The notes under the pieces were generated by a model. It was given only the letters and a program-made list of their open reading frames with translations, did not search any database and was not told the origin of the DNA. A stretch of 59,963 nt of DNA from Bacillota bacterium (GTDB lineage: Bacteria; Bacillota; Dethiobacteria; SKNC01). The DNA lies in contig SKNC01000091.1 of assembly GCA_007120745.1 (NCBI GenBank), positions 1-59,963 of the forward strand, written 5' to 3'. Made by a program: the position numbers and the translations under genes. Shown in pieces: positions 49,837 to 54,114 of this stretch (positions are counted from its first letter, which is position 1; every line of letters begins with the position of its first letter).

Positions 49837-49895
49837 AAACCTTTTGAATCAGCGTGGAGGGAAAAGGCGAGGTTAATTTTAAAAAATTTTCACCG

Positions 49896-49919
49896 GCGGA
49901 GTAAATCCGCTTTTTTTTT
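49896..49919 (+). terminator. Rho-independent terminator after cwlD
   Basis: GCGGA (49896-49900) pairs with TCCGC (49906-49910) around GTAAA, followed by nine T. It lies 60 bases after the cwlD stop. Confidence 0.8.
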
Positions 49920-49975
49920 ATTAAAAAAATTTAACGCTCAATCTGTGACAGGTACACAAACAATCACACGTAAAC

Positions 49976-50004
49976 TTGCATGCACCAAATTTTGTATATA
50001 TAAT
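49976..50004 (+). promoter_or_regulatory. promoter of the AmmeMemoRadiSam genes
   Basis: TTGCAT (49976-49981) and TATAAT (49999-50004) are exactly 17 bases apart, 75 bases upstream of the MEMO-AMMECR1 gene and right after the cwlD terminator. So this locus has its own housekeeping-type promoter. Confidence 0.7.
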
Positions 50005-50079
50005 GGGTTTAAGAATACCAGGGAGAGTTAGAAGCTTTGATTTCTTTGGTAAGCTGGAGAAGTAAAAGGAGGGAATTCC

Positions 50080-51486
50080 ATGAACAGTATTTTACTGGCA
50101 GGTATAACTCCACATCCCCCCATTATTATTCCCGAGGTAGGGGGACGAGAGACTGAAAAGGTTAAAAACACCATAGAAGCTCTTACAACGCTGGCAGAGG
50201 AAGTTAAGGAGTGCGGCCCGGAAACTGTGGTAATTATCACACCCCACGGGACCGTATTTAGAAATGCCATCGCAGTAAATGGACAGGACCAGTTATCAGG
50301 TTCTTTGGAACAGTTTGGCGCGCCCCAGGTGAAAATCCAGGTGTCCAATGACCCGGACCTGGTGGATACCATTATCAGGGAGGCAGAAACGGAGGGCATT
50401 TTAGGAGTAGAGTTGGACCAGGAACAGGCGATAAATTATGATATCAGCCTGAATCTGGACCACGGGTCCCTGGTTCCCATGTATTTTCTTCAAAAAGCAC
50501 AGGTGGAGGCATCTTATGTTCACGTTACCATAGGGTTTTTAAGCTGCCCGGAGATTTATTCTTTTGGCAAGTCTATTCAAAGGGCGGCGCAGAAGGAAGG
50601 TCGTAAAATCGTGGTGCTGGCCAGTGGTGACCTGTCTCACTGTTTAATTCCTGGCGCCCCCGCGCAGTATAACCCGGCGGGAAAGGAGTTTGACTCTAAA
50701 ATGAAGACACTCCTCCAGGAATACAATGTGGAGAAAATTATGAATCTGGATGAAAGTCTGGTCAGCAGTGCCGCTGAATGTGGATTAAGGCCAATCATCA
50801 TGGCACTGGGCTCGCTGGATGGATACAGGGTAGAATCCCAGGTTTTATCTTACGAAGGGCCTTTCGGGGTGGGTTACCTGGTGGCTCTTTTAAGGCCGGG
50901 AAAATTTAATGAAGAAGATGAGGCGGGAGAGCGGTACCGCAGGGAAGAACAGCAAAAAATAAAAGCCCAACAGGAGAAGGAAAGCATCTATGTTAAACTG
51001 GCCCGGGAAGCTCTTGAAACCTATATAAGAGAGGGGAAAAAGCCTGAACTCCCTGACCCCCTACCGGAGGAGTTAAGAGATAAAGCCGGGGTTTTTGTTT
51101 CTATTAAATCTAAAGGACAGCTCAGGGGTTGTATTGGCACCATTGAACCAACCCGGGATAATATTGCTGAAGAAATAACCCAGAATGCCTTAAGCGCTGG
51201 ACTCTCAGATCTCCGGTTTCCCCCTGTTACTTCCGAAGAACTGCCTTATCTAAATTATTCTGTAGATTTATTGATGCCGCCGGAACCGGTGGAGGGACTG
51301 CAGAACCTGGATCCTCAAAAATTCGGAGTGATTGTAAAAAGCGGTTTGAAGACCGGTCTTCTTCTACCTAAGCTGGAAGGGGTAGATACCGTTGAAAAAC
51401 AGGTAAATATTGCCCGGGAAAAAGCAGGGTTAAACCCGGGAGAAAAAGCGGATTTATACCGGTTTGAAGTGAAAAGATACTATTAA
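50080..51486 (+). CDS. AmmeMemoRadiSam system proteins B and A fused (MEMO + AMMECR1)
   Basis: The 468-residue protein fuses two conserved domains that are separate in other organisms. Residues 1 to about 265 form a MEMO/LigB-like domain (class III extradiol dioxygenase fold) with ITPHPPIII, IITPHGTVFRN, DHGSLVPMYF and SGDLSHC, which contribute metal-ligand-like His/Asp. After a charged linker, residues from about 300 form an AMMECR1 domain with the invariant-type LRGCIGTIEP and FPPVTSEEL motifs. AAAGGAGGG precedes the ATG. The gene is followed 36 bases later by a radical SAM gene. The three domains form the so-called AmmeMemoRadiSam system; to my knowledge the reaction is unknown. Confidence 0.92.
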   Translation: MNSILLAGITPHPPIIIPEVGGRETEKVKNTIEALTTLAEEVKECGPETVVIITPHGTVFRNAIAVNGQDQLSGSLEQFGAPQVKIQVSNDPDLVDTIIREAETEGILGVELDQEQAINYDISLNLDHGSLVPMYFLQKAQVEASYVHVTIGFLSCPEIYSFGKSIQRAAQKEGRKIVVLASGDLSHCLIPGAPAQYNPAGKEFDSKMKTLLQEYNVEKIMNLDESLVSSAAECGLRPIIMALGSLDGYRVESQVLSYEGPFGVGYLVALLRPGKFNEEDEAGERYRREEQQKIKAQQEKESIYVKLAREALETYIREGKKPELPDPLPEELRDKAGVFVSIKSKGQLRGCIGTIEPTRDNIAEEITQNALSAGLSDLRFPPVTSEELPYLNYSVDLLMPPEPVEGLQNLDPQKFGVIVKSGLKTGLLLPKLEGVDTVEKQVNIAREKAGLNPGEKADLYRFEVKRYY

Positions 51487-51522
51487 ATCGCGGTAATACA
51501 TTGAACGAAGGAGGAAGCTTCA

Positions 51523-52560
51523 ATGTTCAGGGGAAAATTAGCAAAGGAAGCCATGTTCTATGCCTTAGATTCGGTAAAAGACCTGGTGCTCTGCCGGTTA
51601 TGCCCCCACTACTGCCGAATCAAGGGGGGAGAGATCGGTAAATGCAGGGTCAGGGGCCGCCAGGGGAAAGAACTAATCAGCCTTAATTACGGTGAATGTG
51701 CATCGTACTGCCTGGACCCCATAGAAAAAAAGCCCCTTTATCATTTTTACCCTGGAAGCCACATATTTTCCCTGGGCTCTGTGGGCTGTAACTTTTCCTG
51801 CGAGTTCTGCCAAAACTGGAACATTGCCCAACAGTTTGAGTCGGTAAATACCACATCCATAACTCCCGAAAATGTTCTGGAAATCATGGAGAAGAGAGTC
51901 CCGGAGGAACACCGCTTGGGAGCTGCCTATACCTATAACGAGCCTACGGTGTGGTACGAATTTGTTTACGACACCTCCCGCCTGCTTCATGCAAAAGGGT
52001 TCAAAAATGTGCTGGTCACCAACGGTTTTATCAATGCTGAACCCCTGGAAAAGATTCTGCCGTATATTGATGCCATGAACATCGACGTGAAAAGCTTTAC
52101 CCGGAAGTTTTACCAAAAGTACTGCGACGGCAGCTTGAAGCCGGTGATGCGTACCGTTGAGATGGCGGCTTCCCAATGCCATGTGGAACTTACCACTTTA
52201 ATTATCCCGGATTTGAATGATTCTCCCCAGGAGATTGAAGGGCTGGTAGACTGGATTGCCGGAATTAACCGGGAAATTCCCCTGCACCTTTCTCGTTACT
52301 TCCCAAGTTACAGGATGACGAAAGAGGCTACACCGGAAAAAATCCTGGAGAAAGCCCGGGAAATTGCCCTGCAAAAACTCCGGTACGTGTATACCGGGAA
52401 TCTTTTTGGCAGTGATTATGCCAGCACCTATTGTCCAGAGTGTAATGACTTATTAATCAAAAGAACCGGTTTTGCCATAAGCAATGAAGGGATAGATGAT
52501 AAATTCGGCTGCCGTCGCTGTGGTGAGAAAATTGCAATTAAGGGTAAGATAATAGAATAA
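51523..52560 (+). CDS. AmmeMemoRadiSam system radical SAM protein
   Basis: The 345-residue protein resembles pyruvate formate-lyase activating enzymes. It has C89xxxC93xxC96 (GCNFSCEFCQNW) for the SAM-binding 4Fe-4S cluster, YTYNEPTVW (with the Glu/Asn-Glu-Pro block), and extra cysteines at both ends: C24xxC27xxxC31 with C41 near the N-terminus, and two CxxC pairs (YCPECN and GCRRCG) near the C-terminus, likely for more metal or Fe-S sites. No glycyl-radical enzyme gene is nearby, so it is not a plain PFL activase. It is co-transcribed with the MEMO-AMMECR1 gene. Confidence 0.92.
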   Translation: MFRGKLAKEAMFYALDSVKDLVLCRLCPHYCRIKGGEIGKCRVRGRQGKELISLNYGECASYCLDPIEKKPLYHFYPGSHIFSLGSVGCNFSCEFCQNWNIAQQFESVNTTSITPENVLEIMEKRVPEEHRLGAAYTYNEPTVWYEFVYDTSRLLHAKGFKNVLVTNGFINAEPLEKILPYIDAMNIDVKSFTRKFYQKYCDGSLKPVMRTVEMAASQCHVELTTLIIPDLNDSPQEIEGLVDWIAGINREIPLHLSRYFPSYRMTKEATPEKILEKAREIALQKLRYVYTGNLFGSDYASTYCPECNDLLIKRTGFAISNEGIDDKFGCRRCGEKIAIKGKIIE

Positions 52561-52755: not shown

Positions 52756-54114
52756 ATGAATAATCCGGCCGTACCTTTATTTCAGTTCTTGACTTTAATA
52801 AATCAGGCAGTTAATGAATTGGTCTGGGGAATCCCCTTGATTGTGTTAATCCTGGGTACCGGGATATATCTAACCTACCGGACCCGTTTTATTCAGGTTA
52901 CTAAAATAGGAATCATTATCAAAACCGTGGTCTCGGGATTTATCCACCGGAAAAAGGGAGAGGGGGATATTTCTCCCTTCCAGGCGCTGACTACAGCCCT
53001 GGCGGCTACTGTGGGAACCGGAAATATTGCCGGCGTGGCCACAGCCATTTCCCTGGGAGGAGCAGGAGCCATGTTTTGGATGTGGTTTTCTGCTTTTTTT
53101 GGGATGGTAACCAAGTACAGTGAAATCGTCCTTGCGGTTCATTACCGGGAAAAGAAGCCCGGGAGCGGAACTGTGGGAGGGCCCATGTATTTCCTGCAAA
53201 ATGGTTTAAACAACAGGGTACTGGCGGTCCTCTTTGCATTTTTTGGCTCCCTGGCGGCCTTTGGAATTGGGAACATGGTTCAGGCCAACTCGGTGGCCGA
53301 TGCGGTAAACAAAGCTTTTGGTCTTCCCACTTTCCTGACCGGTTTGGTGCTGGCAGTGGTAGCCGGAGCGGTAATTTTGGGGGGCATCAAAAGGATAGCC
53401 TCCATAACAGAAAAGCTGGTGCCGGTTATGGCTGCCCTCTATGTACTGGGAGCAGTAACAATACTCATATTAAATTTCAACCTGATTCCAGGCGCCCTGT
53501 CCAGTATTTTCAGCCTGGCTTTTACCGGGGAAGCAGCAGCAGGAGGCTTTGTAGGGGCAGGAGTTCGGGAGGCAGTACGGTTTGGAGTGGCCCGGGGTAT
53601 TTTTACCAATGAAGCTGGACTGGGCAGCGCCTCCATTGCCCATGCCTCCGCCAGGACCGACCACCCCGTGGCCCAGGGAACCTGGGGAATCATTGAAGTA
53701 TTCATCGATACCCTGGTAATCTGTACCCTGACTGCCCTGGTAATTTTGGTGACCGGAGCATTGGAATCAGGCCTGGAGGGGGCTGCCTTAACCACGGAGG
53801 CCTTTAACCGGGGACTTCCCGGGCCGGGGGGATTGATTGTTGCAGTGGGACTGATATTTTTTGCCTTTACCACCCTTCTGGCCTGGTCTTTCTACGGGGA
53901 AAAGTGTTTTGAATTTCTCTTTGGTACCAGGGCATCCCTGAGATATCGACAGGTTTGGATCCCCTTTATTCTGGTAGGTGCCGTGGGGGGCTTGAGAGGT
54001 ATATGGAGTCTGGCGGATACCTTGAATGGCTTGATGGCTGTTCCCAACTTGATAGGCCTGGTAGGTTTAAGTGGTTTGGTGGTGAAGCTTTCCCGAGAAT
54101 ACTTTAGAGGGTAG
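52756..54114 (+). CDS. sodium:alanine/glycine symporter (AGCS family)
   Basis: The 452-residue protein has about ten or more membrane helices and clear AGCS motifs: ALTTALAATVGTGNIAGVATAISLGGAGAMFWMW, GGPMYFLQNGL and FTNEAGLGSASIAHASARTDHPVAQG. The family imports alanine or glycine with Na+ (sometimes H+). AAAAGGAGA precedes the ATG. The gene stands alone after a 195-base gap; that gap contains GCAAATTTGC (52701-52710) and a GGTCGGAGAGG stretch, but no riboswitch I can defend. Confidence 0.93.
   Translation: MNNPAVPLFQFLTLINQAVNELVWGIPLIVLILGTGIYLTYRTRFIQVTKIGIIIKTVVSGFIHRKKGEGDISPFQALTTALAATVGTGNIAGVATAISLGGAGAMFWMWFSAFFGMVTKYSEIVLAVHYREKKPGSGTVGGPMYFLQNGLNNRVLAVLFAFFGSLAAFGIGNMVQANSVADAVNKAFGLPTFLTGLVLAVVAGAVILGGIKRIASITEKLVPVMAALYVLGAVTILILNFNLIPGALSSIFSLAFTGEAAAGGFVGAGVREAVRFGVARGIFTNEAGLGSASIAHASARTDHPVAQGTWGIIEVFIDTLVICTLTALVILVTGALESGLEGAALTTEAFNRGLPGPGGLIVAVGLIFFAFTTLLAWSFYGEKCFEFLFGTRASLRYRQVWIPFILVGAVGGLRGIWSLADTLNGLMAVPNLIGLVGLSGLVVKLSREYFRG

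Follow-up and report, generated by a model that had tools for sequence, protein, structure and literature searches.

The window, the 59,963-nucleotide stretch of DNA analysed here, is one contig of a 1.44-Mb draft genome (about 90% complete) and carries two neighbouring genes on the forward strand. The first (50080..51486, +), defined by its ORF and profile matches, encodes a 468-residue fusion of a LigB/MEMO-fold domain and an AMMECR1 domain; the second (51523..52560, +), assigned by ORF and TIGR04337, encodes a 345-residue radical SAM enzyme of the AmmeMemoRadiSam type. As an earlier note on this DNA had described, the two ORFs are separated by 36 bases. Each has a strong Shine–Dalgarno sequence, read directly from the DNA (AGGAGGG at 50067..50073 for the fusion gene, AGGAGG at 51509..51514 for the radical SAM gene, both +). 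The same note gave the pair its own promoter behind a terminator. Terminator scanning and the sequence itself place an intrinsic terminator 3′ of cwlD (49895..49921, +, with 49895–49911 given by the scan; 6-bp stem and T run), downstream of which the sequence reads TTGCAT-N17-TATAAT (49976..50004, +), with a perfect −10 box and a weak −35 box; the promoter scan did not report this element because its −35 box matches at only three of six positions. A complete genome of the same genus (G002) has TTGCAC-N17-TATAAT at the matching locus, with the −10 flank TTTTGTATATATAATGGGT retained and the remaining spacer diverged, and such recurrence across a diverged spacer supports a real promoter. An Rfam search of the leader matched no riboswitch or structured-leader family.

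Gene order in the window runs chrA pair, cwlD, fusion, radical SAM gene, sodium:alanine symporter, cdaA, cdaR, glmM and glmS, the names cdaR, glmM and glmS being drawn from sequence and gene order. A seat between cwlD and cdaA–cdaR–glmM–glmS is common to families of the class, with single genes lost or inserted. The symporter gene directly downstream (window 52756–54114; PF01235, 461.9 bits) adjoins the pair in many class relatives. Across a phylum sample of 59 loci, nearly all from different families and with gene names read from representative sequences, the upstream side holds a cwlD-like amidase in most of 29 loci and rpsI and rplM in 19. Genes resembling argC, argJ, argB and argD lie downstream in 14–18 of the 59, which we judge to reflect conserved gene order instead of a functional link to arginine genes. 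Just upstream of the fusion, L119, L120, L129 and L130, and five loci of the phylum sample, have an arginase/agmatinase-like gene. We take the pair to be an old locus kept by vertical descent.

A named system in its usual form

All three profiles of the AmmeMemoRadiSam system, suggested beforehand as a check, exceed their cut-offs: TIGR04335 for protein A (AMMECR1) at 132.3 bits against 99, TIGR04336 for the MEMO-like protein B more modestly at 34.7 against 26, and TIGR04337 for the radical SAM enzyme at 320.8 against 220. The genes adjoin as in the known system, and the assignment is right; it is almost certain that the pair is a housekeeping-like member of AmmeMemoRadiSam in an anaerobic-looking bacterium, with a neighbourhood kept across the class. 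It departs from the three-protein description in that B and A share one polypeptide, whose B domain is the modest match, but such fusion is the norm for the phylum, being found at 53 of 59 sampled loci. The locus had been put forward as the strongest candidate for an undescribed system. This does not survive, since NCBIfam names the system already and the fused form is usual; the locus is unremarkable, a well-preserved copy of a system that is known and named but functionally unsolved.

Co-occurrence of the genes in relatives had been set in advance as a refutation test, and it holds with two true exceptions. Among class relatives, TIGR04335 matches occur in 52 of 60 genomes, and a TIGR04337 gene adjoins AMMECR1 in 51 of these 52 (one of the 51 truncated at a contig end); in the single exception the AMMECR1 gene itself sits at a contig end. 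Genomes G003, G014, G039 and G041 gave no strong match to either the AMMECR1 or the radical SAM family. Across the phylum, the gene caller places a radical SAM gene nearby in 53 of 59 loci and two more were confirmed, giving about 55; in G087 the radical SAM gene is elsewhere in the genome, and in G060 the AMMECR1 locus is at a contig end. The true exceptions are G232 (complete) and G081 (near-complete), which keep the LigB–AMMECR1 fusion with no TIGR04337 match over cut-off, suggesting that the radical SAM step is not always needed.

Fusion of LigB and AMMECR1 is common and not special, as 70 of 90 loci have it and 20 are split, with at least eight changes of state on the radical SAM tree. 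Split loci of the class retain the order LigB, AMMECR1, radical SAM gene. A mirror-tree correlation of 0.52 was discarded as evidence because shared ancestry alone yields such a value. One distant relative (L002:526-2884) has the order radical SAM gene, shortened LigB, then AMMECR1 as a separate ORF; its LigB has no LDHG segment and has Asn-Cys in place of Glu-Cys.

Domains and the putative metal site

The fusion is modular, formed by a LigB-fold domain at residues 9–268 (50104..50883, +; PF02900, 172.6 bits), with predicted metal residues H12, H56 and E233/C234, and an AMMECR1 domain at residues 305–466 (50992..51477, +; PF01871, 156.3 bits, and TIGR04335). The latter resembles archaeal and human AMMECR1 (1VAJ, 1ZQ7) in its domain and its LRGCIG motif, present in 43 of 43 sequences, and differs in standing at the C-terminus of a LigB-fold protein. 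The description of the protein as a MEMO–AMMECR1 fusion is sound as to the fusion and the AMMECR1 half; the name MEMO is loose, the N-terminal domain being LigB-like first and MEMO-like second. The Memo profile PF01875 barely clears its cut-off of 27 with 28.5 bits, and profile scores place the domain closer to the LigB extradiol dioxygenases (173 bits) than to MEMO (28.5 bits). Foldseek searches with the predicted fusion structure, a low-confidence model, return AMMECR1 and aminophenol dioxygenases, and MEMO1 more weakly. The structure models (window protein and one relative; pLDDT 51 and 53) are too poor for placing ligands and serve for fold matches only, so that our view of the fold draws on a low-confidence model together with sequence profiles.

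Conserved residues of the LigB-fold domain are H12, H56, H128 (with few exceptions), S182, D184, S186, H187 and D205; by conservation, H128 and H187 are putative active-site residues within 50104..50883 (+). Conservation and alignment also mark the E233–C234 codons (50776..50781, +) as a putative third metal ligand, either Glu as in LigB or Cys as in MEMO1. Counted over 100 sequences (after removal of a duplicate row for the window and omission of one row that did not align), C234 is invariant (100/100) and E233 occurs in 94, the others having Gln (five) or Asn (one). Alignment to the beta subunit of 2-aminophenol dioxygenase (3VSG/3VSH) sets H12 on H13 and E233 on E251, both iron ligands in that enzyme (PMC11081632). 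The domain shares with LigB extradiol dioxygenases (2-aminophenol 1,6-dioxygenase, DesB, HpaD) the fold, the H12/H56 positions, a Glu on E251 and a conserved His in a GDLSH motif. It differs from them in its invariant Cys beside a variable Glu, its AMMECR1 fusion and its anaerobic-looking host.

MEMO1 is the second point of reference: its iron site is H49, H81 and C244, and it had no dioxygenase activity with the substrates tested (PMC11081632). The domain and MEMO1/Mho1 have in common the superfamily, two His and a Cys near the third-ligand position, and are set apart by the weak profile score (28.5 bits), the Glu–Cys pair, the AMMECR1 fusion and the radical SAM partner. No match was obtained when the LigB-fold domain was compared with MEMO1 by sequence profile, and a profile comparison with a putatively exported MEMO-like family ended before the third ligand. 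Cys234 recalls the MEMO1 ligand Cys244, a match that we take from the motif. On sequence grounds, Cys234 may be no less likely a metal ligand than Glu233.

Pfam finds Radical_SAM as the sole domain of the partner protein, with no SPASM domain, and its core aligns closest to PFL-AE by both profile comparison and foldseek. Conservation defines three cysteine groups (all +): a putative N-terminal metal or Fe-S site, Cys4 of the form C24-x2-C27-x3-C31-x9-C41 (51592..51645); the radical SAM CxxxCxxC, C89/C93/C96 (51787..51810); and a zinc-ribbon-like C-terminal CxxC-x22-CxxC, C304/C307 and C330/C333 (52432..52521). The Cys4 group, the C-terminal pairs and a genome lacking a Gly_radical domain distinguish the protein from PFL-AE, with which it shares the radical SAM core. 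The further cysteine groups reported at both ends are indeed there, and all three sets are invariant in 23 of 23 sequences. In the phylum sample CxxxCxxC and the N-terminal Cys4 are found in 53 of 53, the C-terminal cysteines in 42–43. The suggestion that the extra cysteines hold Fe-S clusters is possible for the universal Cys4; the C-terminal CPxC...CxxC is zinc-ribbon-like and absent from around 10 of the 53 relatives.

Candidate reactions of the pair

The host looks anaerobic. COX1 was sought in its genome and none was found, and the genome has six matches to the prismane/CODH family, some of them fragments. AMMECR1 (PF01871) is itself an anaerobe marker, present in 3.38% of aerobic versus 50.66% of anaerobic genomes (PMC13386939). 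The earlier idea that the MEMO domain oxidises the substrate is therefore doubtful as a reaction with O2. The Gly_radical domain PF01228 is absent from G000, G001 and the complete G002, all of which have the pair, and is present in many other class members. The earlier remark that no glycyl-radical enzyme is adjacent can be widened, for PF01228, to cover the entire draft genome as well as the complete same-genus genome. Because the host looks anaerobic and the complete same-genus genome is without Gly_radical, neither O2-dependent ring opening nor glycyl-radical activation is likely.

Gene order and co-occurrence are what suggest that the fusion and the radical SAM enzyme may co-operate. Our leading reading, held tentatively, is that the radical SAM enzyme and an iron site may act in sequence, without O2, on one substrate held by AMMECR1. 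The AMMECR1 domain would bind this substrate, a small molecule or nucleic acid; the radical SAM enzyme, with its PflA-like core, would cleave SAM and take hydrogen from the bound substrate. The LigB/MEMO domain would hold one Fe(II), its ligands being H12, H56 and C234 and/or E233; H187 and H128 would serve in acid–base catalysis, and the domain would perform the second step on the radical SAM product, again without O2. Fusion would keep both of the non-radical parts side by side. Anoxia is probably the main condition under which the substrate is produced or required, and a glycyl-radical enzyme is an unlikely substrate. A bolder version, in which an anaerobic, O2-free pathway uses a dioxygenase-fold iron site with a Glu–Cys ligand pair for chemistry new to the LigB superfamily, is doubtful; if true, it would also indicate the ancestral function from which those of MEMO1 and AMMECR1 derive. 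These two proteins are linked to human disease, and to our knowledge there is no agreement on what they do biochemically. A compact bacterial version with two genes, which occurs mainly in anaerobes, is a tractable system for finding their reaction, and the very low likelihood of glycyl-radical activation and the defined question of Glu233 or Cys234 add to this.

The substrate could instead be a nucleobase of tRNA or rRNA, modified by the radical SAM step and by the LigB/AMMECR1 fusion, which we consider unlikely. Burroughs reportedly proposed nucleotide-base or isoprenoid modification in JBC in 2019. The pair often lies near truA–rplM–rpsI in the phylum, but that conserved block also contains cell-wall and arginine genes; the radical SAM profile matches RlmN and TYW1 structures, but weakly and in a way generic to the superfamily. 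Archaeal AMMECR1 has been linked to PIN and Zn-ribbon proteins (PMC6393860); no RNA-binding domain was detected here. It is less probable that the pair handles iron or redox state, the LigB/MEMO domain storing or sensing Fe(II) in the service of Fe-S or metal homeostasis. An invariant His2-plus-Cys site would suit this role, and MEMO1 is an iron-binding protein with an effect on iron homeostasis (PMC11081632); however, the strictly conserved S182, D184, S186, H187 and D205 look catalytic, and storage would not be expected to need a dedicated radical SAM partner.

Maturation of a peptide by the radical SAM enzyme, as for a RiPP, is improbable. Peptide-processing systems do contain a radical SAM domain related to those of the Memo–Ammecr1 type (PMC7159879), but the short gap between the two genes, 36 bases here and under 100 in most phylum loci, leaves little space there for a conserved peptide gene, and no small neighbour recurs among the genes of at least 90 residues in phylum loci. 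A true O2-dependent extradiol ring-cleaving dioxygenase, which the LigB fold and ligand positions would allow, is very improbable in so anaerobic-looking a genome and with an anaerobe-marker family (PMC13386939) as fusion partner, where, moreover, E233 varies and the adjacent Cys is invariant. That the radical SAM protein is a glycyl-radical enzyme activase has next to no likelihood: in its core it most resembles PFL-AE and other activases, but its score is far under the activase profile cut-offs, and the searches for PF01228 in its own draft genome and in the complete same-genus genome largely refute the idea.

Possibly exported paralogues in relatives

Class relatives, not the window's genome, have a second TIGR04337-type radical SAM protein of about 390–510 residues (332–360 bits; loci L033-L039, L041, L042, L044-L047, L070-L077 and L080-L082), whose N-terminus has an RRxF/L motif resembling a Tat signal and a lipobox-like Cys. 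Signal assignments for these paralogues, and for the MEMO-domain proteins described below, come from motifs judged by eye and a simple pattern; export would be unusual for a radical SAM enzyme. In 10 of 11 loci a further radical SAM gene runs convergently to that of the paralogue, and its product often has a similar N-terminus (TIGR01409 at 21.7 bits in one); in 11 of 11, a large membrane protein that carries a spermidine-synthase domain (PF01564; NF037959) is encoded close by. No LigB or AMMECR1 gene was found near this second enzyme in the class relatives. In phylum relatives L103-L115, proteins with a MEMO domain (111 bits to PF01875 in L103) begin with a segment that resembles a signal peptide or a lipobox, and their genes follow one for a protein of ~420 residues that matched no Pfam or NCBIfam family where tested. 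Several genomes with MEMO proteins of this type also have the LigB–AMMECR1 fusion.
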